Positions 10,541-29,638 of a stretch of 64,000 nucleotides of DNA are shown here, in pieces (the first letter of the stretch is position 1; each line of letters begins with the position of its first letter). The notes beneath the pieces are model-generated. The model was not told the origin of the DNA, ran no database searches, and was given only the letters and a program-made list of their open reading frames with translations. Source of the DNA: Amycolatopsis methanolica 239 (GTDB lineage: Bacteria; Actinomycetota; Actinomycetes; Mycobacteriales; Pseudonocardiaceae); the NCBI RefSeq assembly GCF_000739085.1, contig NZ_CP009110.1, positions 6,448,001 to 6,512,000 of the forward strand, read 5' to 3'. A program made the translations under genes and the position numbers.

Positions 10541-10542
10541 GA

Positions 10543-15510: not shown

Positions 15511-15513
15511 GAG

Positions 15514-15783: not shown

Positions 15784-15816
15784 CGGGCACCCTCCTCCGC
15801 TGCCCGTCGCCACGCA

Positions 15817-15860: not shown

Positions 15861-15889
15861 TTCTGGGCACACTGCGCCTAAGTGACGTC

Positions 15890-15920: not shown

Positions 15921-15955
15921 CAGGGGGCGCGTCGCGCGTGTCGCGGCGTTCGGGC

Positions 15956-16225
15956 TCAGCGGCCGGCCGACGTCGTTCCGTCGGTCTCGCGCCATGCGCC
16001 AGCATCATGACCGGCGGCGGCGAGGGCGTCGTAGACGTTGCGGCGGGTCAGTCCCGCCGCTTCGGCGAGCTGGGCGCCGGTGGCCCCGGCCAGCTTGGCA
16101 GTGACGAGCTCCTCGTTTCGCTTCGCGCGGACCCGGTCGGCCAAGGCCTCGATCCGGGCCAGCTGCGCGGCCCGCTTGCGGACCTGCTCGAGCTCGGGCG
16201 GTGGAGGTGTGGGCTTGCGCGGCAT
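15956..16225 (-). CDS. Small helix-turn-helix protein
   Basis: 89 aa, ATG at 16225 with GGGAGC upstream. N-terminal Pro-rich segment, a charged helix (QLARIEALADRVRAKRNEEL), then a helix-turn-helix-like GATGAQLAEAAGLTRRNVYDAL at about 49-70. Lies just before the late leader, so it may control late transcription or bind phage DNA. Exact role unknown. Confidence 0.7.
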   Translation of the reverse strand: MPRKPTPPPPELEQVRKRAAQLARIEALADRVRAKRNEELVTAKLAGATGAQLAEAAGLTRRNVYDALAAAGHDAGAWRETDGTTSAGR

Positions 16226-16343
16226 GACGTGCTCCCGGTTATCCTGGCGTCGGAGTTTCTTCCACTCGGCCCCGGTGTGCTGTGCAAGAGCCGCCGGGGC
16301 ATTTTCGTGGCCCGCTACAGAGGGAAGGGTCCGGGGTGGAGCG

Positions 16344-16374
16344 CCGGGGCGGCGGCTGGGTGCCGCCGCCCCGG
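16344..16374 (-). terminator. Terminator after the 125-aa gene
   Basis: Perfect 13-bp G/C stem (16344..16356 with 16362..16374) and a 5-base loop, seven bases downstream of the stop of 16381..16758. Confidence 0.8.
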
Positions 16375-16380
16375 GTTGGT

Positions 16381-16758
16381 TCATCCGATGATGGAGCCGA
16401 GGTGCTTGGCGTCGAGACGCCCGCGCACCACCCGCACCGTGCAGCCGAACTTGAACCGGACATCAGCCCGGTTGTTCACGCCCCGCCAGTTGTACCGGTC
16501 CGAGACGGTGGTGGCCCGGGCCCTGATGGTCTGGGCGGTCCACTGCTCGAACTCGGCGTTGTCCTGGACGTGGGCCTGGACGGTGATGGTGTTGCCCGCC
16601 ACCGCGACCACGAGGATCACGGTCGAGGGCATCCGGCCCTCGTGCTGGTCGACCTTGAGGTCGCTCAAGATCCGACCGGCCACCCGGTAGAGGTCCTCGC
16701 CAGCACTTTCGTGATAGCGGACCCCGTAGAACCGGTCATCGGCGAACTTGTCGTCCAT
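16381..16758 (-). CDS. Single-gene unit, unknown function
   Basis: 125 aa, ATG at 16758 with GAAGGAA upstream. Mixed alpha/beta composition: an N-terminal YGVRYHESAGEDLYRVAGRI helix region, a hydrophobic strand STVILVVAVAG and a C-terminal DVRFKFGCTVRVVRG strand. No family recognised. It has its own promoter/operator region upstream and a strong terminator downstream, so it is regulated separately from both neighbours. Confidence 0.75.
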   Translation of the reverse strand: MDDKFADDRFYGVRYHESAGEDLYRVAGRILSDLKVDQHEGRMPSTVILVVAVAGNTITVQAHVQDNAEFEQWTAQTIRARATTVSDRYNWRGVNNRADVRFKFGCTVRVVRGRLDAKHLGSIIG

Positions 16759-16842
16759 CCGGAGTTCCTTCCACTCTGTAGTTATCCCCCGGCGGGTGGT
16801 GCAAGCACCCGGTCCCGGGGGCCGCCCCGTTCGGGACTTCTT

Positions 16843-16883
16843 AATTATGTACCCCCGGGACTCACTATCGCAAGTGGATAGTG
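16843..16883 (-). promoter_or_regulatory. AT-rich promoter with overlapping inverted-repeat operator
   Basis: On the minus strand TTGCGA (16868..16873) and CATAAT (16843..16848; 19-base spacer) form a candidate promoter for the 125-aa gene. An inverted repeat, CACTATC (16863..16869) and GATAGTG (16877..16883), spans the -35 box, as a repressor site would. AT-rich bases here contrast with the GC-rich surroundings. Confidence 0.5.
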
Positions 16884-16899
16884 TGTGGTGCGGAGCACA

Positions 16900-17322
16900 C
16901 TACTGGGCGGCGAGCTCGCGGGCCTTGGCCTCAGCCAGTTCGTGCGCCCGCTCCGGAGTGGACGCGTAGGCAGTCAGGTGGTGAACGTCGGTGCCGCTCA
17001 CCGCGCGCTCCAGCTCGCCGGCGTCGGTGTCGACGTGCACCCGCTCGCCGGGCATGTCGGCGGTGTCGAACACGACCCGGGATGCGCCGCGAAGCTTCGC
17101 CGGCGCGGACAGCTGCCAGCTGCCGCCCTGCACGCTCGCCCGGCACGCCCACACATGCGCGACGAACCCGACTCCGGCCTGGGCCACGCGCACGGGCGCG
17201 ACGATGTGCCCCTCGCCGAGCTCGGCGGCGAGCTTGCCCGCGGTCTCGGCGTCTGGCCATGCGGCGAGGATCTCCGGGAACTCGCCGAGTCGCAGGATCG
17301 CGTGCAAGGTCTGCTCACTCAT
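16900..17322 (-). CDS. Unknown early protein
   Basis: 140 aa, ATG at 17322 (AGGAGG nine bases upstream; the ATG at 17331 is too close to it). Overlaps the upstream gene by eight bases. Predicted helix-strand mix with a Glu/Ala-rich C-terminal helix (TPERAHELAEAKARELAAQ). Last gene of the leftward run that begins at 19995. Confidence 0.72.
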   Translation of the reverse strand: MSEQTLHAILRLGEFPEILAAWPDAETAGKLAAELGEGHIVAPVRVAQAGVGFVAHVWACRASVQGGSWQLSAPAKLRGASRVVFDTADMPGERVHVDTDAGELERAVSGTDVHHLTAYASTPERAHELAEAKARELAAQ

Positions 17323-18031
17323 GCTGGTCATCCTCCTCGATCGGCCGGATGGTGCCAGTCCACCCGCCGTTGCCCTCCGCTCCGGAGCGCAGCCGTGGAC
17401 GCGACGGCTGCGCCTGGTCCTGCTGCTCGAGCACCTCACGCAGCAGTTCGAAGTTCGCCGGCGGCCAGCAGTGCTGGCACGCCAGGCACACGCACCCGCG
17501 CTCCGGATCGATCTGCAGCGCGGGCACTTGCACGTGCCCGTGCTCCTGGTCCCCGCGCCACACCATTCCGGCGCCGCACGCCGGGCAGGCCGCGGCCATG
17601 TGCAGCTGGCGCGGTGGGTCCAGCAGGTTGTTGATCTGGGCCGCCCAGTACTGCAGTTCATGCACGACCCAGGCGACCCGGTCACCGTCGGCCCATCGGC
17701 CTGCGATCGCCGCGGCCGCGCGGAACCGGGAGACCGGATCGGCGTCGGCCACCATCGCGTTGTAGTGCAGCTCGGCCGCGGCGCGCTCGACTTGGCGCCG
17801 CAGGTCCGCGGCGGCGAGCCGGAGCGGTTCGGTCGTGCGCGCGCCGCTGGCCTTGCCGGTCTCGCCGCCGTGCGCGAGCGCCTGGTCCAGCTGCTCGAGC
17901 AACGATGGCGCGTGATGCGTGGTGGTCGTCAGGTCCTCGCGGACGATTTTGCGTTCGATCGGGTCGACGAGCGCGGCGAGCGCTCGCCGCAGCTCGCCCT
18001 GCAAGGCGCGCAGAGTGCGCTGATCGGTCAT
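17315..18031 (-). CDS. Putative zinc-binding protein
   Basis: 238 aa, ATG at 18031 in an ATGA overlap. N-terminal 120 residues are helical and charged. CPACGAG followed about 25 residues later by CVCLACQHCW gives a likely zinc ribbon near residues 145-190, then an acidic C-terminus. Nucleic-acid binding is a reasonable guess; no specific family recognised. Confidence 0.72.
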   Translation of the reverse strand: MTDQRTLRALQGELRRALAALVDPIERKIVREDLTTTTHHAPSLLEQLDQALAHGGETGKASGARTTEPLRLAAADLRRQVERAAAELHYNAMVADADPVSRFRAAAAIAGRWADGDRVAWVVHELQYWAAQINNLLDPPRQLHMAAACPACGAGMVWRGDQEHGHVQVPALQIDPERGCVCLACQHCWPPANFELLREVLEQQDQAQPSRPRLRSGAEGNGGWTGTIRPIEEDDQHE

Positions 18032-18486
18032 CGGGTCCCCCGTGCGTGGATTGTGCGTGGTGGCCGCGGCCGGTGGTCCGGGCCGGTGTTGCGGTGGCGG
18101 CGCAGGTGCAGCGCGCGCATCTTCGGATCCGTCGGCGGTGCCGGCCGGGCCAGCCCGGCGTGCTGCAGGCACTCGGCCATCGCGTTGACGGTCGGCACAA
18201 GGCTCGCGAAGGCCTGCGCCACGCCCTCGACCAGCTGTCGCCAGACCGGAGCGGCTCCGCGCAGCACGACCGCTGCGGCCTCCAGCCGCCGCTCGGCTTC
18301 CTGCTCTCTCGCCCGGGCCAGCGCCGCGCGCAGGACGTCGGCCTCCGGGGTGACCTGCACGCGGCTCGCCGCCCAGAGCCGCTGGTGCACCTCGCAGCAG
18401 AAGTCCGGCGACGGTGAGTCGCCGAGGGGGCCGCCGCACCAGTGGCAGCCGATCGCCTGGTCGATCAGCTCGATGATGTCGGTCAT
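18028..18486 (-). CDS. Small Cys/His-cluster protein
   Basis: 152 aa, ATG at 18486 overlapping the previous stop (ATGA). N-terminal GCHWCGGPLGDSPSPDFCCE is a short zinc-knuckle-like cluster, like those that read as FCS/zinc fingers in actinophages. The middle is a long Ala/Glu/Arg helix; the C-terminus is basic (RRHRNTGPDHRPRPP). Confidence 0.7.
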   Translation of the reverse strand: MTDIIELIDQAIGCHWCGGPLGDSPSPDFCCEVHQRLWAASRVQVTPEADVLRAALARAREQEAERRLEAAAVVLRGAAPVWRQLVEGVAQAFASLVPTVNAMAECLQHAGLARPAPPTDPKMRALHLRRHRNTGPDHRPRPPRTIHARGTR

Positions 18487-18686
18487 GCCCGCTCGGCTCC
18501 GGTCTGCTCGATCTGGTCGACAAGCGCGAGCAGCGCGTAGCCGACGCCGAGCGTCGCCGCGCTGTCGATGTGCTCGAACGGCAGGTGTTGCACCTCGTCG
18601 GTGTAGGCGTCGAGTTGCTGGGCCGCGCGGTCGAGCCAGGCGCGGGCCTGGCCGGCCGCGGGTGGCCGCGGGGTCATGGGGTCCAT
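18483..18686 (-). CDS. Small helical protein, unknown
   Basis: 67 aa, ATG at 18686; an ATG three codons later is an alternative. Overlaps the 75-aa gene upstream by 13 bases and the next gene by four. Helical throughout, no motif. Retained because the tight overlaps fit the operon pattern. Confidence 0.62.
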   Translation of the reverse strand: MDPMTPRPPAAGQARAWLDRAAQQLDAYTDEVQHLPFEHIDSAATLGVGYALLALVDQIEQTGAERA

Positions 18687-18901
18687 CGTTCGGAGTCCCT
18701 TCCTTCCTGTCGTTCGGCTTTCGCGATCCGCTGGTGGTGCGCTGGGCCGCGCAACGGCTCGCCGGTGATGACGTTCGTGCAGGTCTTGCCTGGCTGGGCG
18801 TTGCAGCGTGGGCAGTCGGTGGTCTCGGCGTCCTCGCGGGTCATGAGGAAGTTGCCGAGCTCGTCGAGGCGCCGGAGCTCGCCCGCGGTGTAGCGGCTCA
18901 C
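18674..18901 (-). CDS. Actinophage-type zinc-finger protein
   Basis: 75 aa from GTG 18901, which forms a GTGA overlap with the HNH-domain gene stop. Contains CPRCNAQPGKTC with HH about 20 residues on (GPAHHQR), a short zinc motif common in actinophage early regions. Longer upstream reading is a shadow of the neighbour. Confidence 0.7.
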   Translation of the reverse strand: MSRYTAGELRRLDELGNFLMTREDAETTDCPRCNAQPGKTCTNVITGEPLRGPAHHQRIAKAERQEGRDSERWTP

Positions 18902-19995
18902 GGCGGACCGTCCGAACCGGGCAGGCTCTGCTCGCACTCGACGCACCCGGTGTCGACCGGGTAGCCGTGCACGCACAGCTCGGCCTGGTCCTCGTCGACA
19001 TCGTCCGGGGCGGGCGGGGTGTAGCCGGTGATGCCCTTGGCGTAGGGGCTGGGGGCGAGGTTCCCTCGTGCGGTGGTGGGTGGTCCGACGGTGGGGCGTT
19101 TCCCGGTTGGTCCGGCGTCTCCCACTCGGTCTTTCCAGGACGGTTTCAGTGCGGCACCCATCCCGGCCCCGCCCCTACCCAGCCCGACCGTGGTGCCGCC
19201 GCTGATGCCGTCGCGGATCTGCCCGTTTCCGGGCGCGACCTGCCCATTCGTGTAGGTCGGGGCGGGAGTGTCCGTGCCGTCCGGTGGATCCGGCGTCCTG
19301 GCCGGATCTGGATCGGATCCAACTGCGGATCTGGGTCCGGGTGCTGATGTGGCGTTGATCTTGCGCTGATCGGACGTTGGTCCGTCGTTGATCTTGTCCG
19401 GGTCGGGCGGGGGCAGGAGGTCCATGCCGGCGACCTCGGGCGTGCAGTCCTGCTTGCGCGAATTGCAGCCGCGGCAGGCCACGACGAGGTTGTCCGCTCC
19501 GGCGGCGATCTTCGGGTCGACGTGGTCGAACACGCCGCCCGCCGGGGTCTTGCGGTCCTGCCAGCGGACCTCGATGCCGCAGTAGCGGCAGCGGCTGCCG
19601 TCGCGGGCGCGCACCGCGGCCTTGAGCTGCGGGTCGCGCAGCTCGCGCCGCTTTGCCTTGTGCACGTCGTTCTCCGACCGGGACGGGTTGCGGTCGAGGA
19701 ACCCGTGCACGTAGAACCCGCCGAGCTCGGCGGGCCAGTCGCGGCCCTCCAGGCAGCGGCACTCGTCGCCGTGTTGGTGCAGGAACGGGCCCCGGTCGGC
19801 CACGCGCATCTCGGTCAGCGCACGCAGTTCGGCCCGGGAGGCGATCTCCCGGGCCTTGTCGGCAGGAATCCAGCCGTCCGTCCGTTGCGCCGAGCAGTAC
19901 AGCTTCATGCGCTGTACGGCGCCGTAGGCGGCGTTTCCCACCGCTCGCACGAGAACGTCGTCGTACTCGACGTCGTCCGTCCGCAGCCACGGCAT
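18898..19995 (-). CDS. HNH-domain protein with disordered C-terminus
   Basis: 365 aa, ATG at 19995. Residues 1-110 include a conserved-looking MPWLRTDDVEYDDVLVRAVG start seen in actinobacterial phage replication-region proteins. HNH core: SRCRYCG (C136, C139), VFDHVDPK (D157, H158) and CRGCNSRK. The last about 170 residues are Pro/Gly/Thr-rich with a final CVHGYPVDTGCVEC cluster. First gene of its operon, downstream of a terminator. Replication or recombination role is inferred. Confidence 0.8.
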   Translation of the reverse strand: MPWLRTDDVEYDDVLVRAVGNAAYGAVQRMKLYCSAQRTDGWIPADKAREIASRAELRALTEMRVADRGPFLHQHGDECRCLEGRDWPAELGGFYVHGFLDRNPSRSENDVHKAKRRELRDPQLKAAVRARDGSRCRYCGIEVRWQDRKTPAGGVFDHVDPKIAAGADNLVVACRGCNSRKQDCTPEVAGMDLLPPPDPDKINDGPTSDQRKINATSAPGPRSAVGSDPDPARTPDPPDGTDTPAPTYTNGQVAPGNGQIRDGISGGTTVGLGRGGAGMGAALKPSWKDRVGDAGPTGKRPTVGPPTTARGNLAPSPYAKGITGYTPPAPDDVDEDQAELCVHGYPVDTGCVECEQSLPGSDGPP

Positions 19996-20094
19996 CGGTC
20001 ACCGCCCGCCGCTCGGCACGGACACCGCGCAGCACTGGCCGCTGCCCTCCAACGGTGATTCCTCCAGCATCGTGCTTGTCCACTTCGGATAGGT

Positions 20095-20134
20095 GACCGG
20101 CCGCGCCCCCGGGGAAGCAGGGGCGCGGCCGGTC
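20095..20134 (-). terminator. Terminator closing the early operon
   Basis: Perfect 15-bp stem (20095..20109 with 20120..20134; GACCGGCCGCGCCCC arm) and 10-base loop, about 40 bases past the stop of the 43-aa gene. Confidence 0.85.
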
Positions 20135-20174
20135 GGCTGTGACGGCGCTCAAGGCGAGCGCCGAGATCGGGTAA

Positions 20175-20306
20175 TCAGGTCTGCTGGTCCGGCGCCGGCT
20201 CGCGGTGCGCCCCGTCGCTCTCGTCGCGTGCGTCGTCGGTGGCGGGCACGGGGTGTTTGCCCCAGAGGCTCCATGCGGCGGGCGGGATCGGCGGCTGCTC
20301 AGGCAT
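20175..20306 (-). CDS. 43-aa protein
   Basis: ATG at 20306 in an ATGA overlap with the 123-aa gene; TGA at 20175..20177, then the operon terminator. Begins MPEQPPIPPAAWSLWGKHP, a Pro/Trp motif frequent in tiny actinophage proteins; acidic end. Short, but the coupling and the terminator support it. Confidence 0.65.
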   Translation of the reverse strand: MPEQPPIPPAAWSLWGKHPVPATDDARDESDGAHREPAPDQQT

Positions 20307-20677
20307 CAGCGGGGGGTCTCCTGGTGGGTGAGAGCGGCGCGGAGGTCCCGGATCAGGTCGGCGGGGTCCGGGTCGCGGCCGTCCTCGAACTCGGCCTCGT
20401 CACGGTCCAGCCGGGCGAGCGCAGCGTCGATGCGGGCCTGGAGGTCGTCGCGCTCGCGGCGCGTGGCCATGAGCCGGCCGCGGTCCTCGACCGCCTCCTG
20501 CCGGTACTGGAGGCAGTTCGCGTGCAGCCGCTCCAGCTCGGCGAGGATCTTGCCAGCGAGGTCGGCGACCTTCGCGGCGCTCGGCTCCGGCACGCGTCCG
20601 GCTGCCCAGTTCTCGGCGTAGGCGCGCAGGGCGATCGCCGAGGCACGCGGGCCCGCCATTTTCGACTTCTCGGTCAT
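20306..20677 (-). CDS. Coiled-coil protein
   Basis: 123 aa. ATG at 20677 (GAGGAG eight bases upstream, ATGA overlap). Residues 30-115 are a continuous charged helix with heptad-like spacing (AKVADLAGKILAELERLHANC; ERDDLQARIDAALARL). No enzyme motif. Likely oligomeric. Confidence 0.72.
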   Translation of the reverse strand: MTEKSKMAGPRASAIALRAYAENWAAGRVPEPSAAKVADLAGKILAELERLHANCLQYRQEAVEDRGRLMATRRERDDLQARIDAALARLDRDEAEFEDGRDPDPADLIRDLRAALTHQETPR

Positions 20678-21357
20678 CGCTTGCGCTCCTCGCGTCGGTG
20701 GAGCACGGCTGCGGCGGTGTTGGCGACGTCCTCCCACAGCGACACGCCCGGGTTGAACGGCGAGCGCGTCTCCGACCAGTTGTCGTTGGGGTCCCACAGC
20801 GCGGCGAGCTCGTCGGCGATCTCCCTACCCGCGTCGCACGGCTCGCACGGACGTCGAATCAGCTGGCGGAGGGCGTCCGGAATCCGGATGTCGAGCACGA
20901 TGACGACATCCTCAGGGGCCTGAGCCGGAGCGGTCTCGGGGCCGCGCTCGAGCACACGGACGGTCGTGGGCAGCACGGCGTACGGCGTCGGCTCGCCGGG
21001 CTTGAGCACGGCCAGCCAGCCGCGCCGGTTGATGTCTTCGTCGTCGACCAGCGTGCCCTCTACGACGGGGAAGTCCCGTCCGCCGTAGCCGCGGACCCGG
21101 TCGCCGGGCCGGGGCTCCGGTCGGCCGAACCGCTGCTCAGCATCGGCGCTGAGCTTGAACAGGTCCTGCGCCGTCAGGACCTGCCCAGTGAGGACTGGGG
21201 CGGAGGCGATGCCGCGCGGGTAGCGGGCGCGCAGCGCGGTGCGGACCTTCTCACGGTCAGTGTCGCGGATGGCCGGCCCGGTGCCGGTGTTGCAGAGGCA
21301 CAAGGCGTCGTGGACGAGCTGCACTATGTCGTCGGTGATGTCGGTCGGGCCGGTCAC
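20674..21357 (-). CDS. Unknown early protein
   Basis: 227 aa, GTG at 21357 (GTGA overlap with the LuxR-type gene). A central RPGDRVRGYGGRDFPVVEGTLVDD segment reads like a small beta-barrel such as a Tudor/SH3 fold. A CEPCDAGREIADELAALWDP motif follows near residue 180. No family assigned. Confidence 0.72.
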   Translation of the reverse strand: MTGPTDITDDIVQLVHDALCLCNTGTGPAIRDTDREKVRTALRARYPRGIASAPVLTGQVLTAQDLFKLSADAEQRFGRPEPRPGDRVRGYGGRDFPVVEGTLVDDEDINRRGWLAVLKPGEPTPYAVLPTTVRVLERGPETAPAQAPEDVVIVLDIRIPDALRQLIRRPCEPCDAGREIADELAALWDPNDNWSETRSPFNPGVSLWEDVANTAAAVLHRREERKR

Positions 21358-21806
21358 TGAGGGCCTCCGGTGGTGTCGAGGATGTTGCGCTGGCAGGCGA
21401 GGAACACGGCGTGCGCGCGGTCGCGGGCGCCGAGCTTGTGGAACATGCGGCGAGCGTGGGTCTTGACGGTGTCCTCGGAGATGTGGAGCTCACGGCCGAT
21501 GTCGGCGTTCGTGAGGCCCTGGGACATGCCGTGCAGGACCTCGACCTCGCGCTCGGTGAGGCCGGCCAGCACGGCGGGCGGGTTGGTCTCCGACAGCGCC
21601 GGGCGTTCGGGCGCGCGGACCGGGCGCCCGGAGACCTTGCCGGGGCCGCCGGTGACGTAGCGACGCTGCCGGGCGGGGCCGTCGGGGATGCGCTTGACGT
21701 CGATGCCGTAGCTCGACAGCACGCCCATGACGAGCGGGACGGCGTCAGGGTGGATCTGCAGCCCGGTGTACCGGCTGCGGTCGTCGTCAGCGAGTGCGGC
21801 GGTCAT
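21354..21806 (-). CDS. LuxR-type helix-turn-helix regulator
   Basis: 150 aa from ATG 21806 (AAAGGA upstream). C-terminal GerE/LuxR domain: LTEREVEVLHGMSQGLTNAD then IGRELHISEDTVKTHARRMF. No receiver domain; the first about 70 residues are a different small domain. It probably binds DNA as a dimer and may time early or middle genes. Overlaps both neighbours. Confidence 0.87.
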   Translation of the reverse strand: MTAALADDDRSRYTGLQIHPDAVPLVMGVLSSYGIDVKRIPDGPARQRRYVTGGPGKVSGRPVRAPERPALSETNPPAVLAGLTEREVEVLHGMSQGLTNADIGRELHISEDTVKTHARRMFHKLGARDRAHAVFLACQRNILDTTGGPQ

Positions 21807-21936
21807 CGTTGTCCTTTGTGGATTCGGCACGCCGGTGGGCGTGCAGGTAGTCGGCGGCGGAGTCGAGAAGCACGCCGGCGGCCCAGACGGCCAGGCGCGC
21901 GGTGTGGGCGAGGGCCAGGGCGACGACGGCGTTCAC
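21787..21936 (-). CDS. 49-aa hydrophobic protein
   Basis: GTG at 21936 makes a GTGA overlap with the upstream stop. Residues 3-30 are hydrophobic/amphipathic (AVVALALAHTARLAVWAAG), then a charged tail. It overlaps the start of the LuxR-type gene by 20 bases. May sit at the membrane. Confidence 0.6.
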   Translation of the reverse strand: MNAVVALALAHTARLAVWAAGVLLDSAADYLHAHRRAESTKDNDDRRTR

Positions 21937-22469
21937 GGGCGGGACCTCAGTTCGTGGTCGGTGCAGGCCGGCCACCAGGCGCGCACGTCGGTGCCGGCGC
22001 CGCGGGTGATCCGGTCGCCGTCGTGGACGAGGCACTTGGGGTAGCGGCCGGGACGGCGGTAGCGGCAGTTGCCGCAGCGGCGCCCGGGCGCGGCCCGGTC
22101 GGCGGCAGGCGCGGCGCCGGGGTGCAGCTTCACGGGGTAGCCCAGCGCGGCGGTGAGCGGGTGCGCACCGGCGGCGAGGTACTGGCCCTGCCGTTCGGTC
22201 CGGCGGGCGTCCGGGGACGCCTCGCCGAGCCGGTAGAGCGGGGCCGCGGTGTACTCGAACGGGCCGCCGGGGCGGCCGACCGTCCACACCACCCAGAAGT
22301 GGTGCCGGCCGCTGTCCGGGTCGGCGGCGACCTGGACCACGCGGCCGCGCCAGGACGCGTCCCGGTGGTAGCCGACCCGCTCCCCGACGGCGAACAGCGG
22401 CCGGTGCTCCGCAGGGCCCGAGCTGCCGCCCCACAGCGGCAGCGAGTGCTGGTCGGACTGCTTGGTCAT
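21933..22469 (-). CDS. Putative small zinc-binding protein
   Basis: 178 aa from ATG 22469, one base past the upstream stop (TGATG); a GTG one codon earlier is possible. Early segment VGERVGYHRDASWRGRVVQV looks like an SH3-like strand set. C-terminal RRCGNCRYRRPGRYPKC... with a later CTDH pair is a likely zinc site. Confidence 0.7.
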   Translation of the reverse strand: MTKQSDQHSLPLWGGSSGPAEHRPLFAVGERVGYHRDASWRGRVVQVAADPDSGRHHFWVVWTVGRPGGPFEYTAAPLYRLGEASPDARRTERQGQYLAAGAHPLTAALGYPVKLHPGAAPAADRAAPGRRCGNCRYRRPGRYPKCLVHDGDRITRGAGTDVRAWWPACTDHELRSRP

Positions 22470-23095
22470 CACGTCGCGTCACCCCCGCGCAGGAGTTGCC
22501 GGGCGGTGTCGAGGCGAGCCCAGTCGGCCGGGTCGCCGCCGAGGTCCGGGTGCGACTTGCGGGCGGCGATCCGGAGCAGGCCGCGGATGTCGGAGTCGGT
22601 GAGCTGCAGCGGGTGCACCGCGCCGGTGAACTCGCGGAGCCAGTCCAGCGCCTCGCGCTTGGTGGAGAACGGCGCAGCCGGGCGAGCGCCTTCGATCGCG
22701 CGCCACCCGGCGTACTGCTCGCCGCGGCTGGACACCCCATAGCGGTCGACGGTGCGCAGCGCGTGCAGCGCGAGCGCGATGGCCCGCACGTTGTCCTGCC
22801 AGGAGTTCGCGAAGGTGTCGCACGGGTAGGACAGCGGTCCGTGCTTGCTCCGGAAGGCCAGCGCCACGCCGTGGTAGCGCACCTTCGCGTTCGAGCGGAG
22901 CATCCCGTCGCGCCGCACGTCCGCGTCGGTGGCCACGACGCGCAGCGCGACCGCGCCCTGCACACCGAGGTGGGCCAGCTCGCGGCTGAGCAGGTCGAGG
23001 GTGTCGGCCCACTTCACGCGGAACGGGCTGGCCCGCGGGTGCGGTGTTGCCGGGTAGGGCCAGGTCGGCATCGGCTCGATCTGGTATCGCATCAT
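22469..23095 (-). CDS. J-domain-like protein
   Basis: 208 aa, ATG at 23095 (ATGA overlap). The C-terminal about 45 residues carry IRGLLRIAARKSHPDLGGD, with the HPD signature that DnaJ-type proteins use to stimulate DnaK, followed by a helix. The rest is an unknown domain. In phages such proteins are thought to recruit host DnaK; that is inference here. Confidence 0.72.
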   Translation of the reverse strand: MMRYQIEPMPTWPYPATPHPRASPFRVKWADTLDLLSRELAHLGVQGAVALRVVATDADVRRDGMLRSNAKVRYHGVALAFRSKHGPLSYPCDTFANSWQDNVRAIALALHALRTVDRYGVSSRGEQYAGWRAIEGARPAAPFSTKREALDWLREFTGAVHPLQLTDSDIRGLLRIAARKSHPDLGGDPADWARLDTARQLLRGGDAT

Positions 23096-23682
23096 CGGCG
23101 CACCACCGCCGAGGATGTGCCCGGGTACGGCTTGCCGCCGCCGGGCTCCTCACACGGCCCGAAGGCCTCGCCGGAGGCGCCCATCGGATAGAGGTGCCGG
23201 TGCGGCCGGACGGTCGCGCCGGCGCGGCGTGCGTGCTCGAGCTCGTTGGCCAGCTCGACCGCCTCGGCCTGTAGCCGGGCTGCGGCGGCCTGCAGGTCGT
23301 CGCGCTCGTGCACGACGGTGCTGAGCTGCTGCTGGACGTCGACCAGCTCACGGCGCGTCCGGTCGTGGGCGGCTTGGTGCTCGGCGCGCTCGCGGTCGGC
23401 GGTTGCGGTGATGCGGTCGAGGTTGCCGCGCACCGTGGCCAGCTCGGCCCGCAGCCGGGTCAGCTCGGCCTGGGTGGCTTCCCGGTCGGCGGCCGCCGCA
23501 CCGGCAGCGCCGCCGCGGGCCAGCAGCGGCTCCACGATCTGCTTGCGCACCGCGGCGGCGAACGCGGTGATCGTGTGGTGCGGTAGCGGTTCGTCGCCGG
23601 CGCGGCGGGCCAGGCGCTCGTCCTCCCGCCGCAACACGACTTCCGGGTCGGGAACGGCGCGGCCGGTGACCGTGGCGGTCAT
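23092..23682 (-). CDS. Coiled-coil protein
   Basis: 196 aa, ATG at 23682 (ATGA overlap). Residues about 65-160 form a long coiled coil rich in Ala/Glu/Arg/Gln; the C-terminus is Gly/Pro-rich (CEEPGGGKPYPG). No catalytic motif. Similar architecture occurs in actinobacterial phage early operons without known function. Confidence 0.72.
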   Translation of the reverse strand: MTATVTGRAVPDPEVVLRREDERLARRAGDEPLPHHTITAFAAAVRKQIVEPLLARGGAAGAAAADREATQAELTRLRAELATVRGNLDRITATADRERAEHQAAHDRTRRELVDVQQQLSTVVHERDDLQAAAARLQAEAVELANELEHARRAGATVRPHRHLYPMGASGEAFGPCEEPGGGKPYPGTSSAVVRR

Positions 23683-24005
23683 GACTCGGCCCACCAGTGC
23701 TCGCGGCAGTGGTCGGTGCCATCCGCCTTCTCGGCCGTGCAGCGGGACTCGCCGCGGCCGTCCGCGCGGGGAGCGCGGAACTCGCAGCGGCCCGGCAGGT
23801 TGGCCTGCAACCACCGCCGCGCCTCACCGACCGCGGCCCCGTGCGCCGCCGCGTCGCGACCGTGGTTGTCGGTGATGGCCTGCCGCATCGTCTTGGGCAG
23901 GCGCTGCCAGGAAGCGCGGCAGGAGAACTTGCTGTGCGGGATCTCGGCGCCGCAGCCGCACGGGCAGGCGTGCATCCGCCGGCGGTGGTCAAGGTGGGCG
24001 CTCAC
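23679..24005 (-). CDS. Putative zinc-finger protein
   Basis: 108 aa from GTG 24005 (GTGA overlap). N-terminal HACPCGCGAEIPHSKFSC and C-terminal CTAEKADGTDHCREHWW look like two Cys/His zinc sites around a helical centre. DNA or RNA binding is likely but unproven. Confidence 0.72.
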   Translation of the reverse strand: MSAHLDHRRRMHACPCGCGAEIPHSKFSCRASWQRLPKTMRQAITDNHGRDAAAHGAAVGEARRWLQANLPGRCEFRAPRADGRGESRCTAEKADGTDHCREHWWAES

Positions 24006-25099
24006 TGGGCACCACCCCGGATCTCCTCGAGGACCTCGGCGAGCCCGTCGACGGGCACCAGGACCTCCCGGGCCTTGCTGCCGCGGGCCGGGCCGAGCAC
24101 GCCGCGCTGTACCAGCTGGTCGATCAGCCGGTTCGCCTTCGTCGCGCCGATGCGCAGCTTGCGCTGCAGCAGCGTCACCGAGCCCAGCTGCCCGGTGATC
24201 AGCACCTCGGCGGCCTGGCACAGCAGGTCGGGGTCTCGCTCGAGGTCGGGGAACTCGGACAGCGGTTCGTCCACAGCGGAGGTGTCGGCTGTGGACAGCA
24301 CGACTCCGGCGCCGTCGCGCAGGATGCTGCTGCCCGGCGGAAGGTCCGCGTCGGCCTCGGGCTTGCGTGGCGGGGGCGGCAGGTCTGGCACGTACACCGC
24401 AGCGTCGGGCTCCTGGCCGGCGCCGTCGATGTCGTCGTCCCACCGGTAGGAGGTGACCGCGCCGATGTAGCTGGTGCCGATCTGCACCAGCAGCGGCGAG
24501 CGCTGGTGGTAGCGGTAGGTCTCCAGCGCGGACTTGCGCGCCTTGGCCACCCGCACGAACGGCTCCAGCGCCGCGGACCCGAAGTCGGTGCGCGGCACCG
24601 CGGGCACGACCCGGCCGGAGGAGTCCCGGTGCTCGAGGAAGTCCGGGCGCCGGACCAGCAGCGACCACACCGTGCGCGGGTACTCCTCGATCCGGCCCGG
24701 CGAAAACTCCAGCCGCAGCCCGTCGGCCTCGAACAGCGCGTCCTCGCTCTCCCGCACGACGAACACGCCCTCGTCGATGCGGATCTCGACCGCGTGTTCC
24801 TTGTGCTCCTTGGCTTTCCGCTTGAACGCGTCGATCACCGTGCGGACGTCGTCGATCCGCCACAGCATCGGCTCGTGCAGCTGCCCGTCCGCGTGCACGT
24901 AGGTCTGGCCCACGGCGAACCCGTTGCACGACGTGCCCACCAGCAGGTCCGTGCGGCCCGGCTCCAGGCCGCGCTCACCGCGGTCGGTGTGCAGCAGCAC
25001 GCCGGCGACCGCGCCGTCCTCCGGATCCTGGGCAGCGGTGTAAACGAGGCTGCCCAGCAGCTCCAGCAGGTTCTTGGTCTCGATGCGGATCGCGCTCAC
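24002..25099 (-). CDS. Clamp-like protein fused to an FtsK-gamma winged helix
   Basis: 365 aa, GTG at 25099 (GTGA overlap). C-terminal residues about 290-355 match the FtsK gamma DNA-reading domain, including VTLLQRKLRIGATKANRLID then LVQRGVLGPARGSKAREVLV, but no FtsK motor is present. The first about 190 residues read like the first sliding-clamp domains (AGVLLHTDRG, LLVGTSCNGFAVGQT). A Pro-rich linker joins them. The clamp similarity is less certain than the FtsK-gamma call. Confidence 0.72.
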   Translation of the reverse strand: MSAIRIETKNLLELLGSLVYTAAQDPEDGAVAGVLLHTDRGERGLEPGRTDLLVGTSCNGFAVGQTYVHADGQLHEPMLWRIDDVRTVIDAFKRKAKEHKEHAVEIRIDEGVFVVRESEDALFEADGLRLEFSPGRIEEYPRTVWSLLVRRPDFLEHRDSSGRVVPAVPRTDFGSAALEPFVRVAKARKSALETYRYHQRSPLLVQIGTSYIGAVTSYRWDDDIDGAGQEPDAAVYVPDLPPPPRKPEADADLPPGSSILRDGAGVVLSTADTSAVDEPLSEFPDLERDPDLLCQAAEVLITGQLGSVTLLQRKLRIGATKANRLIDQLVQRGVLGPARGSKAREVLVPVDGLAEVLEEIRGGAQ

Positions 25100-25344
25100 G
25101 CCGCGTCCCCACCGTCAGCCAGCGGCAGCTCGGGCTGCTCCTCGCGGTGGAACTCACGCGGGTCGACCACCACGCCACCACGGATGTGGATCAGCGGGTG
25201 CTCGCCGCACAGCGTGCAGTTGCCGAACTGGTCGAGCGTCGGCACTGGCCGCAGGGCGTGCCGCCCGTACTCGAGGTCGGCGAACGTCTGTGGCCGCCGC
25301 TCCTGGGCAGCCGCAGGAGCTTGGGCGGTCTGGGTGTCATCCAC
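25096..25344 (-). CDS. Small Cys-pair protein
   Basis: 82 aa, GTG at 25344 with GGAGG eight bases upstream, and a start inside the previous gene. Central NCTLCGEHPLIHIRGG gives one CxxC and two His, a possible minimal zinc site. Acidic C-terminus. Confidence 0.7.
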   Translation of the reverse strand: MDDTQTAQAPAAAQERRPQTFADLEYGRHALRPVPTLDQFGNCTLCGEHPLIHIRGGVVVDPREFHREEQPELPLADGGDAA

Positions 25345-25828
25345 GGGGCTGACCTCCGGAGATCGGGACGAGCATGTGCCCCCGGGCCTCGATCTCGGCC
25401 CGGGTCCGCTCCTCGATAGGGACGGGAATGTCGAACGTGGGGGTCAGCGCCAGCTCCCAACGCCCGGGCGCTGCCTCGCGGTAGTAGTGCGTCGACCCCG
25501 GCGGCTTGTTGGTGCAGCGGTAGACGACCGGCTGAGCGGGCGGCACCGGGCGGCCGCGGCGGAGCGCGGCGACCAGTCGCGCCCACAGCCCGCGCCGCTC
25601 TGGGGTGTCGCGCACGGCCGGCGGCCGCGGCGGCCAGGCGCCGCGCTCCTCGTAGAAGCTGTTCACCGAGACGTGGTCGTCGGCGCGGCCGTGGTGCTGG
25701 CCACCGGCCGAGTCCGGCACGGGCACCTCGCCGGACTCGCGCTGCCAGATCGTGAGGAACGGCACGGTCGGCTCGCGCCGCGCGACCGGGAAGACGTCGG
25801 TGGGGTCGTCGGGCCAGACGGCGATCAC
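25337..25828 (-). CDS. Unknown early protein
   Basis: 163 aa from GTG 25828 (GTGA overlap with the small lipoprotein-like gene); the longer in-frame reading crosses that gene. Short folded-looking ends with a basic Pro-rich middle (RRGRPVPPAQPV). No family recognised. Confidence 0.68.
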   Translation of the reverse strand: MIAVWPDDPTDVFPVARREPTVPFLTIWQRESGEVPVPDSAGGQHHGRADDHVSVNSFYEERGAWPPRPPAVRDTPERRGLWARLVAALRRGRPVPPAQPVVYRCTNKPPGSTHYYREAAPGRWELALTPTFDIPVPIEERTRAEIEARGHMLVPISGGQPRG

Positions 25829-26007
25829 GCGCCCACCCCCGACGGGGTGGCCGGTGCGACGGCCGGAGTTGTGTGCGGCGCTGTGCCGTTCGGCGGGACG
25901 CATGACGTCGTCATCGCGAACAGCGCGCCGAGGGCGAGCAGGGCTGCCGCGGCGCGCTTCGCGCGCTGCTGGGGCGGGGGCGGTGCCTGTACCTTTGTCG
26001 TCATCAC
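25825..26007 (-). CDS. Small membrane-anchored / lipoprotein-like protein
   Basis: 60 aa; GTG at 26007 is best spaced from AAGGAG, with ATG next. After a short Pro-rich, basic N-terminus comes AAAALLALGALFAMTTSC, a signal-like segment ending in Cys that could be an atypical lipobox; the tail is Pro/Thr-rich. Surface role, for instance superinfection exclusion, is speculation. Confidence 0.68.
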   Translation of the reverse strand: MMTTKVQAPPPPQQRAKRAAAALLALGALFAMTTSCVPPNGTAPHTTPAVAPATPSGVGA

Positions 26008-26040
26008 CGGGTGTTGCTCCTTCCGAGGGTTCCGGTGTGC

Positions 26041-26074
26041 GCCCGTCTCGTCGCCTGGTCCGCGCGAGGCGGGC
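26041..26074. terminator. Hairpin after the XRE operon
   Basis: Arms 26041..26050 and 26065..26074 pair with one G-T, 14-base loop. The T run follows on the plus strand, so the leftward use is uncertain. It lies between the 56-aa gene and the lipoprotein-like gene. Confidence 0.5.
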
Positions 26075-26094
26075 TTTTCTGTCGGTGGGCTGTG

Positions 26095-26265
26095 CTAGGC
26101 GGCGCTCTTGCGCTCGGTCATGCCGCGGCGGATCGGCGGCAGCAGGAGGCGAAGGCGGTCGAGGGTCGCTCCGTCTGGGCGAGGTGCCCGCGCGATCACG
26201 CGGTCGATGAACTGCGCGCGCGACTCGCCAGGTTCGATCGCCAACCGGTGAAGGGCGGTCGTCAC
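26095..26265 (-). CDS. 56-aa protein coupled to the XRE regulator
   Basis: GTG at 26265 overlaps the XRE stop as GTGA; TAG at 26095..26097. Begins MTTALHRLAIEPGESRAQFI and ends RKSAA; basic and helical. Not recognised. Coupling to a regulator suggests an accessory control role. Confidence 0.65.
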   Translation of the reverse strand: MTTALHRLAIEPGESRAQFIDRVIARAPRPDGATLDRLRLLLPPIRRGMTERKSAA

Positions 26266-26597
26266 GCCGCCGCTCCAGCGACCCGTTTGGGGCCGCGCGA
26301 AGGCTCCCGGTCGTCCCGACGGGGTGGGGCTTTCGGTTCGCGCTTGGGCTGCTTTGGTGGTTCGTCCGGGAATGACGCGCCACCCTCCGGCGCGAGGCGG
26401 TCGTCGCGCAGCGCTCGGGCGAGCGCGAACTGCCGACGGCGGGAGGGCTTCCCGTCGTGGCCCAACTCGATGTTGCGGAGATACCCGACCGACATGCCGA
26501 CCTCGGCCGCCAACTCGACCGTTGACTTGTCGGCCTGCTCGCGGAGGCGCCGCACGAGCTGGCCGTAGGCCGGTTGAGTGAGTGGAGGTTCGATCAT
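26262..26597 (-). CDS. XRE-family regulator (leftward early repressor/activator)
   Basis: 111 aa from ATG 26597. HTH in LRRLREQADKSTVELAAEVG and MSVGYLRNIELG, then a basic Pro/Lys/Arg-rich tail. The predicted -10 box (26605..26610) lies seven bases before the ATG, so its mRNA is probably leaderless, and operator repeats abut the start codon. It is first in the leftward early run, facing the rightward repressor-like gene across shared operators, like a cro/cI pair. Confidence 0.85.
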   Translation of the reverse strand: MIEPPLTQPAYGQLVRRLREQADKSTVELAAEVGMSVGYLRNIELGHDGKPSRRRQFALARALRDDRLAPEGGASFPDEPPKQPKREPKAPPRRDDREPSRGPKRVAGAAA

Positions 26598-26604
26598 GTG
26601 CAGA

Positions 26605-26633
26605 AAGGTACAGAGAGGTTCAGGGTCGTGCAA
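26605..26633 (-). promoter_or_regulatory. Leftward early promoter
   Basis: Minus-strand TTGCAC (26628..26633), 17-base spacer, TACCTT (26605..26610). Start point expected at or next to the ATG at 26597. Confidence 0.65.
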
Positions 26634-26642
26634 GGTCCAATG

Positions 26643-26671
26643 TTGCACTACCCTGCACTTTTCTGTACTCT
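26643..26671 (+). promoter_or_regulatory. Rightward repressor promoter
   Basis: TTGCAC (26643..26648), 17-base spacer, TACTCT (26666..26671); the mirror image of the leftward promoter. Gives a leader of about 40 bases with AGGAGG (26703..26708) before the ATG at 26718. Confidence 0.65.
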
Positions 26672-26717
26672 TCTGAACCTAACGCCACCAAAGTGCCAGC
26701 TCAGGAGGCTAAATACG

Positions 26718-27221
26718 ATGGCGCAAGCGGAGAGATTGTTGACGCGACGCAGCGGACGCCGGTTCGCTCCCTGTACTTTTCTGAGCTACTCTGCACGCAT
26801 GGACGAGCGCCGGAAGAAGCTCGGGAGACGGGTCGCCCTTGCCCGTCAGCGCGCCGGCTATTCCAGCCAGAAGGCGTTCGCCGACGCCGCCGACCTCAGC
26901 GAGAAGAGTGTCGCCGACGTGGAGCGCGGCGATACGCGCCCGGGCAAGTCGACGTTGTGGAAGATCGAGGGTGCTCTAGGTTGGCCCGACAACGGAGCGG
27001 TTCACTACCTCGAGACTGGTCGCCCCGAAGATCTTGATGCACTGCCGTTGCCATCGACCGCGCCCACAATCGCAGAGCCTCGGCGGAACTACCCAGCCCA
27101 ACTTGAGGACGACACCGAGCGGAAGCTGTGGGACCTCCCCGAACTGTCCGAAGAGGAGCGCTGGAACCTGATCATCTTCTACCGCACGCAGCGCGCGACC
27201 AAGCTCCGTAACACCGGGTGA
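26718..27221 (+). CDS. XRE-family repressor (immunity repressor candidate)
   Basis: 167 aa from ATG 26718, chosen for AGGAGG nine bases upstream. A second start at 26799 (MDERRKKLGRRVALARQRAG) begins right where the HTH domain starts and follows a third operator array. HTH about residues 35-90 (QKAFADAADLSEKSVADVER). C-terminal ELSEEERWNLIIFYRTQRA could be an oligomerisation helix. Divergent from the early operon, so the likely lysogeny repressor. Confidence 0.82.
   Translation: MAQAERLLTRRSGRRFAPCTFLSYSARMDERRKKLGRRVALARQRAGYSSQKAFADAADLSEKSVADVERGDTRPGKSTLWKIEGALGWPDNGAVHYLETGRPEDLDALPLPSTAPTIAEPRRNYPAQLEDDTERKLWDLPELSEEERWNLIIFYRTQRATKLRNTG
26771..26796. promoter_or_regulatory. Third phased operator array inside the repressor gene
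   Basis: CTGTAC (26771), CTGAGC (26781) and CTGCAC (26791), again 10 bases apart, ending three bases before the alternative ATG at 26799. TACTCT (26787..26792) could serve as a -10 for a leaderless short form. Confidence 0.6.
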
Positions 27222-27254
27222 GAGCCACCGCGCCAACTAGGCCAAATGGGTCGT

Positions 27255-27317
27255 TACCGCGCGGTAGTTGATCACGAACCGGAAACGGTTGCTAACTCAA
27301 TCTGGCGACCTTAGATA
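27255..27317 (+). promoter_or_regulatory. Palindromes and candidate leaderless promoter for the 243-aa gene
   Basis: TACCGCGCGGTA is a perfect palindrome (27255..27266); AACCG-GAAA-CGGTT (27277..27290) is a second inverted repeat overlapping TTGCTA (27289..27294). TAGATA (27312..27317) lies 17 bases on, nine before the GTG. There is no ribosome site. Confidence 0.45.
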
Positions 27318-27325
27318 CATCAATC

Positions 27326-28057
27326 GTGAAAAGAATCGACCTACTGGGGAGGCGGTCGAAGCGGAGGGCTGATGCCTATGAGCAGGGCCTTTCGCTGATC
27401 GCGGAGGCTGTCGCCGGCGGATCGTCTCCTAGTTCGAAACGGTCAGGTAAGGCTCACCTGACCGTTGTGCCGCCCCTGGAGCCCGGGGCGCAACGAATTG
27501 CTCACCGAAAGCTTGCACTTCGGCCACGGGCAGAGTTCTGCGGCTGGTTCCTGTCTGGGCTGACGGCGGCGGTCATGCTGGTAACCCTCGTGGCGCTGCG
27601 CGCACCGGCCTCGCCGACGGATGAGGCTGTGCCCGACCGCGCGCCGGAGTTGAGCGTCGCCCCGACGACCGGCGCGCCCGACGAGAACGACGTCAGAATC
27701 CAGGTGGAGCGGCTACGAGCAAACGGGACGGTCAGTTCGACGACGCCAACGACAACCGTCACAGTCACCGCTCCAGCAGCATGGAACGGCTCGCCCAGCA
27801 CCCGCGTAGCGACGCCACCGAGCAGTTCAACCGCGCGTAGCAGCACGCCCCGAACTCCCCCGCCCTCGACGTCCGCAACCGAGCCAGCGCCGCCGGCCGC
27901 GTCCGACCGACCAGCGCCTGGCAACAACGACGACACTGATCAGGACGGGGACACCGCACCATCGGATGGCCAGCCCGCGGATCAGAAGCGCGCGCAAGGA
28001 ACCCCCCACGGCGTGGCGCTCAACCTCGGCGCTCTGCTCGCCGCGGTCCTTGCCTAG
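27326..28057 (+). CDS. Single-span membrane protein with Thr/Pro-rich exterior
   Basis: 243 aa from GTG 27326, leaderless-looking. Basic N-terminus, one membrane span near residues 72-92 (GWFLSGLTAAVMLVTLVALR), then about 130 residues of Thr/Ser/Pro/Ala with TVTVTAP repeats, probably outside the cell. Lies between the repressor and integrase, the usual place for lysogenic-conversion genes; superinfection exclusion or surface change is an inference. It converges with the integrase, overlapping by four bases. Confidence 0.75.
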   Translation: MKRIDLLGRRSKRRADAYEQGLSLIAEAVAGGSSPSSKRSGKAHLTVVPPLEPGAQRIAHRKLALRPRAEFCGWFLSGLTAAVMLVTLVALRAPASPTDEAVPDRAPELSVAPTTGAPDENDVRIQVERLRANGTVSSTTPTTTVTVTAPAAWNGSPSTRVATPPSSSTARSSTPRTPPPSTSATEPAPPAASDRPAPGNNDDTDQDGDTAPSDGQPADQKRAQGTPHGVALNLGALLAAVLA

Positions 28058-29583
28058 CCGGCGAGCCCTCCATGCTCGGTCGGTTCGTCGCGCACCAGCG
28101 CGACGCGTTCCTCCGCGGGCACAAACGGTTGCCTCCGCCCGGCAGGCATGACGTGCAGCTCACCTAGCACGTTCTTCGCGAACAGCAGTCGCATGATCGC
28201 GCGCCGAGCCGCGATCGGGGTGTGCTGCCAGCGTTCCGCCACGTCCGGCCCCGGCTCGATCAGCCCGCGGAGGACGCTGGGTCTCGCCAGCTGCTCCCGC
28301 TCGCGTTCGAGCTTGGCGATCCGCTGCTCCAGGCCCGGTGCGACATCGCTCGCGAACCCGACGGACAGGGTGCCAGCCCGCACCTTCGCCTTGAGTTCGG
28401 CCAGTTCCGCCCGCACGCCCGCGAGCTGGGTGCGGATCCGTTCAATCTCGGCGTCCCGCTCGTCGTCGGCCTGGTCAAGGGCGCCGTACTGGCGCGGGTC
28501 AGCCAGGAATCGCAACGCGATGTCGGTGGCCAGCTCCTCCAACGGGCCCTTCCGGATCGACACGTGAGTGTTCCCGTTGCAGCGATAGGCGTCACGGGAG
28601 CCACCGATGTACGCGACCGGGCTGCCACAGACGCCGCAGCGCGCGATCAAGCTCAGCAGGTGAACCGCTGCGCCCGGCCGGGTGTTGGTGCACGCGTTGG
28701 CCTGCAGGCGTTCCTGCACTGCGTAGAACAGGTCTGGCTGGACGATCGCTTCCCACTGGGCGGTGACCAAGGCCTTGGCGTTCTTCAGGCTCCGGTTCCC
28801 TCGCACGCCTGGCGAGTGCACCCGGAGGCCGGCGTATGCCGGGTTGACCAGCCAGGAGCGCATGTGCTGCTGGGTGACCTTCGTCCCCTTTCGAGTGCGC
28901 AAGCCGCGCTGGTAGAAGTCCTCGGCGATCGCACGCTGCGAGTGCCCTGCGGCGACGCGCCGGAACGCTTCCTCCACCCAGGGCGCCGCCTCTGGGTCGG
29001 GGAACTGGCCGATAAGCTCGCCGGTCTTCGGGTCGTACTTCCGGATGAAGCCGAACCCCGGGATGCCATGCGGTAGCCCCTCGGCGGCGTTGACTGCGAG
29101 CTGGTCGCGCGTGCGCTCGGACGTCTTGGAGGCCTCGGCCGACGCGTCCAGCGCTTCGTCCAGGAGAGCGCGGCGGTCCCGCCAGTCCGCGCAGTTGAAC
29201 AGCCGCCCCATCACCTCCACCCAGATGTAGACCTGGTGTTCCTCGCACAACTCGATCAGCCGGAGCCATTCGGATTCGCGGCGGCTCCCCCGCGACGCCT
29301 CCCACAGCTGCAGGATCTCGCCGCGTTCGAAGTCGCCAGATTCGAGGTCCTGCATCAGCCGCGCGAAGTCGCCCCGCGACCCGCGCGAGTGCCGTGACGC
29401 ACCGCCGACGTCCCGGTATGGCCCTCGGTGATCGGTTCGCCACTGCCGGATCTTGGCCCGCCGCAAGTGCGCCTTATCCTGCCGCGCGGGGCTCGCTTCC
29501 TGACCGTTCGCAGCCTTTTTGGAAACCCGCAGGTACCGACGCGCTAACGACCCGGCCGCCCCGGGCTCGACGAGGGGAGACAT
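28054..29583 (-). CDS. int: Large serine recombinase (integrase)
   Basis: 509 aa from ATG 29583. Resolvase domain begins RRYLRVSKK with catalytic Ser21; GASRHSRGSRGDF follows. Recombinase domain about 170-265 (GIPGFGFIRKYDPKTGEL; HSQRAIAEDFYQRGLRTRKG). Zinc ribbon CGVCGSP (C316, C319) with YRCNG (C335). A coiled coil follows (RIRTQLAGVRAELAELKAK). It integrates the phage by attP x attB recombination. No clear ribosome site; own promoter upstream. Confidence 0.95.
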   Translation of the reverse strand: MSPLVEPGAAGSLARRYLRVSKKAANGQEASPARQDKAHLRRAKIRQWRTDHRGPYRDVGGASRHSRGSRGDFARLMQDLESGDFERGEILQLWEASRGSRRESEWLRLIELCEEHQVYIWVEVMGRLFNCADWRDRRALLDEALDASAEASKTSERTRDQLAVNAAEGLPHGIPGFGFIRKYDPKTGELIGQFPDPEAAPWVEEAFRRVAAGHSQRAIAEDFYQRGLRTRKGTKVTQQHMRSWLVNPAYAGLRVHSPGVRGNRSLKNAKALVTAQWEAIVQPDLFYAVQERLQANACTNTRPGAAVHLLSLIARCGVCGSPVAYIGGSRDAYRCNGNTHVSIRKGPLEELATDIALRFLADPRQYGALDQADDERDAEIERIRTQLAGVRAELAELKAKVRAGTLSVGFASDVAPGLEQRIAKLEREREQLARPSVLRGLIEPGPDVAERWQHTPIAARRAIMRLLFAKNVLGELHVMPAGRRQPFVPAEERVALVRDEPTEHGGLAG

Positions 29584-29609
29584 GGTGAGTAGGGTAAAGC
29601 ACCACGCAG

Positions 29610-29638
29610 AAGGTACGACGACCGAGGCACCTTGTTAA
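29610..29638 (-). promoter_or_regulatory. Integrase promoter
   Basis: Minus-strand TTAACA (29633..29638), 17-base spacer, TACCTT (29610..29615), the same -10 as the leftward early promoter. A short leader of about 20 bases precedes the ATG. Confidence 0.65.

Follow-up and report, generated by a model that had tools for sequence, protein, structure and literature searches.

Polar half-sites one helical turn apart at a probable lysis-lysogeny switch in an Amycolatopsis prophage and its relatives

In a prophage of Amycolatopsis methanolica 239, the promoters of a divergent pair of genes for XRE-family helix-turn-helix (HTH) proteins are overlaid with arrays of polar hexamers that follow one another at steps of 10 bp, i.e. 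one helical turn. This region is probably a lysis-lysogeny switch in which a CI-like and a Cro-like XRE protein compete for one-turn half-sites over three promoters. Sequence comparison establishes the arrays themselves, the retention of their phasing in relatives, an inner promoter within the repressor gene, a link between recognition helices and box letters, and the recurrence of AA tails on one of the two proteins.

Arrays and promoters of the switch

The window, by which we mean the whole 64-kb stretch of DNA analysed, contains the following elements between and within the two divergent genes:

26262..26597, (-) strand: left XRE gene, Cro-like, opening the leftward operon; encodes 111 aa ending in GAAA, from a leaderless start
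26598..26633, (-) strand: leftward array at P_L, TTGCAC-CTGAAC-CTGTAC-CTGCAC, exact 10-bp step
26633-26628 and 26610-26605, (-) strand: P_L -35 and -10 (TACCTT), both inside the leftward array
26643..26678, (+) strand: rightward array at P_R, TTGCAC-CTGCAC-CTGTAC-CTGAAC, exact 10-bp step
26643-26648 and 26666-26671, (+) strand: P_R -35 and -10 (TACTCT), both inside the rightward array
26703-26708, (+) strand: AGGAGG, Shine-Dalgarno sequence of the long repressor form, with ATG at 26718
26718..27221, (+) strand: right XRE gene, encoding the CI-like repressor; 167 aa in the long form (start at 26718) and 140 aa in the predicted short form (start at 26799)

Direct reading confirms what an earlier, sequence-only reading of this DNA had described, i.e. 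two four-box YTGNAC arrays inverted about a dyad centre at 26638 with every step exactly 10 bp; both are composed of one set of boxes, numbers 2 and 4 having changed places. The boxes are polar, YTGNAC having ends that do not complement each other, and C, T or A may stand at N. That TTGCAC, the first box, doubles as a -35 element is borne out by its spacing of 17 bp to TACCTT on the (-) strand and 17 bp to TACTCT on the (+) strand, and the third box provides an extended -10 (TGTAC). Since boxes thus double as -35 and extended -10 elements, occupied arrays should exclude RNA polymerase; moreover, as 9 bp separate the -35 box of P_L from that of P_R, the polymerases at these two promoters should exclude each other. 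The proposal that the leftward gene is leaderless is supported: TACCTT ends 7 nt from the ATG at 26597, and the left -10 lies at a leaderless distance, 5-9 nt 5' of ATG or GTG, in 29 of 35 related loci (described below). The mirror-image arrangement holds in the window (centre 26638) but not as a general layout, as the leftward arrays of loci L094, L069, L077 and L078 point, partly or wholly, the same way along the DNA as the rightward arrays; the polarity of an array is therefore not tied to that of its promoter.

Such runs are rare. Arrays of three or more boxes were absent from 200 Markov shuffles of the 64 kb, in which arrays of two arose 0.36 times per shuffle, and the only arrays of four in the real window are those at P_L and P_R. 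Throughout the 7.24-Mb genome, runs of three exact boxes are confined to this switch and its identical second copy, at a distance of 37,822 bp. Nine of 397 genomes of the order, the window's own included, contain exact runs of four, and those in the other genomes, classed by their letters, are of different kinds, mostly repeated CTGGAC or repeated 10-mers. This pattern search for four exact boxes in the 397 genomes recovered no relative of the switch, indicating that letters are not conserved, only spacing. When 290-bp sliding segments were scanned over one element period, lag-10 self-similarity reached p ≤ 0.01 in five of 259, two of them at the switch and three at 35.8-36.4 kb. We note separately a second 10-bp-phased region at window 35990-36165, in one register over approximately 170 bp, with three motifs in succession, TAGTCG, AGAGTT-like and GCAAC (the last six times); it adjoins a long inverted repeat (approximately 36163-36205) and is flanked by a phrog_8036 gene and an endolysin-like gene.

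Phasing in related elements

Relatives were collected with a repressor profile. A search of 390 genomes of the family gave 24 places in 19 genomes, from which 21 loci (the first set) were retained after dropping the duplicate copies L074 and L075 and L073, a near copy of L072. A held-out set, used as a blind test, comprised 20 of 22 new places with E ≤ 2.5e-11 and was chosen by protein score alone; G429 (already present as L027) and G346 were omitted, as were places weaker than this E value. Membership of the low-scoring held-out loci L102, L104 and L109-L111 is doubtful, and these were kept in the phasing and start-signal counts.

Comparison of operators across these 41 loci shows one-turn phasing to be kept, as expected of half-site arrays rather than of spaced dyads, whilst the letters vary. 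In the pooled first set (21 loci), excess identity 5' of the repressor gene was +0.073 at lag 10, the next best value being +0.024 at lag 20, and this signal was absent from coding sequence. Mean lag-10 z values 5' of the repressor were 3.04 (21 loci) and 2.79 (20 held-out loci); p ≤ 0.01 was reached in 13/21 first-set and 14/20 held-out loci, leaving 8/21 and 6/20 short of that level, as against 0/20 for the downstream coding sequences of the held-out loci and 0/23 for regions 5' of XRE hits outside the group. Box letters differ by element, and include YTGNAC (window), TGGCA, CTGTA, CTGCA, CTGCG, CATGCGGGAC, GTCAGAAGAG and TGCATCTCTT, among others.

Four of the 41 loci (L061, L071, L103 and L108) instead show 9-bp phasing at p ≤ 0.01, and 9 is also the best step in L072. 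Palindromic cores are found among these 9-bp relatives, i.e. TACGTA (L072), TTGCAA (L061) and TGCGCA (L103), and recall repeats of the RptR type; RptR dimers bind 9-bp direct repeats that each contain a 6-bp palindrome (PMC12255303). These loci and this precedent would fit a scheme in which a single dimer sits compactly on each box, within one major groove, and an array is a row of separate dimers. We nevertheless consider this unlikely, because the window's boxes are polar, with ends that are not self-complementary, and because polar boxes at 10 bp predominate among the relatives; furthermore, RptR reportedly lacks a close structural homologue in the PDB (PMC12255303), whereas both proteins here have ordinary XRE folds.

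The 10-bp period might alternatively arise mostly from promoter elements, the TTG of the -35 and the TG of the extended -10 being 20 bp apart, with ordinary XRE dimers occupying some boxes only. In the window box 1 is indeed the -35 and box 3 the extended -10, and SinR, an XRE relative of both proteins, shows a tenfold preference for inverted as against tandem half-sites (PMC3163267), which cautions against assuming head-to-tail binding by XRE proteins. Boxes 2 and 4, however, belong to no promoter element, 10-bp steps persist in relatives whose letters do not resemble promoters (CATGCGGGAC, GTCAGAAGAG, TGCATCTCTT), and lag 10 stands far above lag 20 in the pooled data, so that we regard this explanation as improbable.

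Beyond the family, tblastn searches of phages found no match to the left protein and five weak records for the right one, including LilSpotty (L082), which reaches lag-10 p ≤ 0.01, and prophiGD05-3 (L083), which does not. A class-wide profile search located repressor relatives in five of 394 genomes besides the window's own. As only two of these eight outer loci (six class-level, two phages) reach lag-10 p ≤ 0.01, the design is thinly represented at most, within what was searched, once the family is left.

An inner promoter and two predicted repressor forms

The repressor gene contains three further elements:

26718..26798, (+) strand: Arg-rich N-terminal extension of the long form, 27 codons
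26771..26796, (+) strand: third array, CTGTAC (26771), CTGAGC (26781) and CTGCAC (26791), over the inner promoter
26787..26792, (+) strand: inner -10, TACTCT, six bases 5' of the inner start at 26799

A third array of three YTGNAC boxes had been claimed here; two boxes (26771 and 26791) are exact, but CTGAGC at 26781 breaks the pattern, so that the array consists of two exact boxes plus one that is off by one. The associated proposal, of a shorter repressor form starting at ATG 26799, gains from conservation of a candidate inner promoter with boxes on it. Inner starts were picked by eye ahead of the -10 test in the first set and by a fixed rule in the held-out set. YANNNT is placed exactly six bases 5' of the inner start in 18/21 first-set and 11/20 held-out loci, compared with 0.3-0.4% of codon pairs. 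With starts set by the fixed rule, nine of the 20 held-out loci have no inner -10; the rule puts at least one start, that of L103, in the wrong place. T occupies position -7 of the inner start, a wobble position at which it is silent in the protein, in 20/21 and 13/20 loci against a background of 7%. Hexamers of the intergenic arrays also recur in the 38 bp 5' of the inner start, with 152 hits against 10.5 expected from equal-length coding stretches (39 loci), and at least two such hexamers are present in 24 of the 39. Recurrence of the -10, of the T at -7 and of the box hexamers together identifies an inner leaderless promoter with its own box array as a conserved part of the switch. A scheme in which neither the third array nor the inner start serves a promoter, and these codons are kept for a conserved peptide (H/Y-S-x-R-M/V), is very improbable, for, although the frame is open upstream and residues recur among loci, the T at -7 is wobble-silent yet kept and YANNNT has its exact placement six bases from the start.

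The right protein scores above the Pfam cut-off for both HTH_3 and HTH_31. In its AlphaFold2 model the HTH region (residues 31-110) has pLDDT of approximately 90 or more and residues 1-16 fall below 50; the inner Met lies mid-helix, in a helix that continues into the HTH. The inner start would yield a short isoform of the repressor.

Start signals for the long form were found in 34 of 41 loci, with an ATG 22-40 codons upstream; 24 of these are leaderless with a -10 and 10 have a Shine-Dalgarno sequence, so the AGGAGG leader described for the rightward gene, present in the window (26703-26708), is the less common type. The 34 extensions average 24.6% Arg and 4.7% Asp plus Glu, and 27 residues is their commonest length. 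The gene's frame through this stretch is open in 37 of 41 loci, compared with 26 and 27 for the other two frames. GC content by codon position within the extension (0.638, 0.665, 0.598) is unlike that of ordinary genes of such genomes; as the pattern is not coding-like, it failed as proof that the extension is translated. At the level of sequence, two conserved start signals point to putative in-frame nested repressor products.

Two proteins and a possibly shared set of boxes

The left protein likewise exceeds the Pfam cut-off for HTH_31 and HTH_3, and has homologues in 36 of 42 loci. AlphaFold2 models of both proteins adopt a Cro/CI-type helical fold, for which Foldseek matches include C.BclI, SinR, ClgR and 434 Cro; the best E values for the two models are 8.7e-3 and 3.7e-4, and a profile search agrees.

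To relate the proteins to the boxes, loci were compared in pairs: the likeness of their phased boxes was set against that of each protein's recognition helix and, separately, against that of the remainder of its HTH domain. The test covered 35 loci and DNA outside both HTH-coding parts; the permutations ignore phylogeny beyond the "rest" covariates. Partial correlations with box letters were 0.284 for the right helix and 0.25 for the left (0/1000 permutations each), against 0.04 (right) and 0.007 (left) for the rest of the domain. In a control with unphased hexamers the values were 0.244 for the right helix (1/1000) and -0.053 for the left; when lag 10 alone was used, the right domain outside its helix gave 0.11 (75/1000). 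A looser test, in which regions may overlap left HTH codons and L102, L104 and L111 are left out, gave somewhat higher values and an unchanged outcome. The tracking of box letters by both recognition helices points to a CI/Cro-like arrangement in which the two proteins would share their boxes.

The C-termini of the two proteins differ. AA ends 20/35 left and 0/41 right proteins, a terminal A is found in 29/35 and 1/41, respectively, and a tail motif P..RxD..GP[KR]R is present in 14/35 left proteins. The example in the window is:

26262-26360, (-) strand: C-terminal tail of the left protein

A Pro-rich basic tail, EPPxQPxxEPxxPPRRxD..GPxRV, ending in AA, is common to left proteins whose HTH domains differ strongly. 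By analogy, the AA end may be an ssrA-like degron that makes the left protein short-lived; BPs provides the precedent for ssrA-like tags in actinophage switches (PMC4557955).

Prophage setting

The chromosome that carries the switch is a single 7.24-Mb contig, and the switch resides in a 37.8-kb prophage that encodes portal, terminase and tape-measure proteins. This element occurs twice, head to tail, each copy measuring 37,822 bp, with zero mismatches between them and a CGAC core at their junction; the 64-kb window covers most of both:

-8203..29622 and 29619..67440 (window coordinates): prophage copies, att core CGAC
28054-29583: serine recombinase, adjoining the att core

The tandem copies may be a real tandem lysogen or an effect of assembly. 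The same switch adjoins tyrosine integrases in Prauserella muralis and A. taiwanensis (loci L024 and L053 belong to the latter genome, of the same genus as the host), rather than the serine enzyme seen here. No similar DNA was found in phage and plasmid collections. Other genes of the prophage include an early leftward gene at window 24002-25099 (FtsK gamma domain, phrog_6152) and, as apparent cargo toward the other end, an XRE-DUF5753 gene beside a DUF6879 gene (30965-32385).

Proposed mechanism

In the mechanism that we propose, three promoters would be under common control: P_L, leaderless, for the lytic operon; P_R for the long repressor; and the inner promoter for a leaderless short form, i.e. 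the repressor minus its 27-residue Arg-rich arm. Repressor along P_L would hold the lytic operon off, whilst identical boxes over P_R and the inner promoter would lead to autoregulation, and the left protein, presumably labile, would compete at all three promoters. We infer the direction of each of these regulatory effects.

How the boxes are occupied is a separate matter. Head-to-tail binding, with one subunit per turn on one face of the DNA and cooperativity between neighbours, would be the simplest reading of polar boxes at 10 bp, and has precedents in Apl and BldC; we consider the chances that it applies here to be about evenly balanced. More tentatively, and with slightly less than even confidence, we suggest that a whole group of actinobacterial prophages uses CI/Cro-type XRE proteins as head-to-tail chains on shared polar half-sites, under a conserved grammar (a 10-bp step, three mostly leaderless promoters and two repressor forms) within which the letters and both helices change together.

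Phage CI and Cro proteins are textbook dimers on dyads. If the present reading is correct, there would be a second way to build a CI/Cro switch, close to Apl, Cox and BldC but made with the most common HTH family of bacteria. The many elements in which box letters vary in step with recognition helices offer a direct test of XRE recognition rules: they form a set of independent repressors with predicted operators and, if the reading holds, a natural library of orthogonal switches. With the inner leaderless promoter and the AA tail, proteolysis and the ratio of isoforms would become components of the decision that can be tested.

Comparison with known systems

No published account of the same design was found in the literature searched, which took in few subscription journals; two neighbouring papers reportedly deal with a monomeric mycobacteriophage repressor (PMC9283540) and with RdfS (PMC11963761). 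As in lambda CI/Cro, a divergent HTH pair has seemingly shared operators and overlapping promoters. Lambda-type operators, however, are spaced dyads for dimers. The operators described here are not built as such dyads but consist of polar half-sites that follow one another at 10 bp, and the repressor gene contains a leaderless promoter of its own. L5-type stoperator immunity was considered and rejected: exact runs occur only at the switch, and the few pairs with one mismatch found elsewhere in the window lie scattered.

The isoforms of the phiC31 repressor share a C-terminus. There are three of them, the c repressor has dispersed binding sites in the genome, and its gene is not in a divergent pair (PMC4557955); the present system would resemble phiC31 in having several predicted repressor forms in an actinophage context, here with two starts and a box array over the inner one. 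BPs carries its ssrA-like C-terminal tag on the repressor and loses it on integration (PMC4557955), whereas in the present switch it is the Cro-like protein that bears the AA tail. Integration-dependent immunity of the BPs type was rejected, as the att core (29619-29622) lies outside the repressor gene (26718-27221), approximately 2.4 kb away.

Direct repeats are also bound by the P2 C repressor (two 8-bp repeats 22 bp apart), lambda CII and the omega repressor (PMC4752584), none of which is described in that source as a CI/Cro pair sharing long one-turn arrays. BldC of Streptomyces forms head-to-tail oligomers on direct repeats of varying number (PMC5859096), but is a MerR-like winged-helix protein that uses 9-bp repeats and regulates host development, whereas the proteins here are XRE by both Pfam and fold.

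The closest likeness is to Apl of coliphage 186 (and P2 Cox), whose arrays between pR and pL are likewise built of direct repeats spaced by one helical turn. Apl recognises 6-bp operators arranged in this way at the lysis-lysogeny promoters, binds as monomers with strong cooperativity between neighbours, and represses both promoters (PMC7498355). Apl and Cox are, however, recombination directionality factors that also bind att and act where the promoters face each other, whereas here an XRE HTH pair is combined with divergent promoters and three sets of arrays. Unlike the case for Apl and Cox, no box pairs, allowing up to one mismatch, are present near the att core at approximately 29620, which speaks against a directionality-factor role for the left protein. 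On the best reading of these analogies, the switch would work like the Apl arrays of phage 186, with a different protein family, promoter layout and isoform design.
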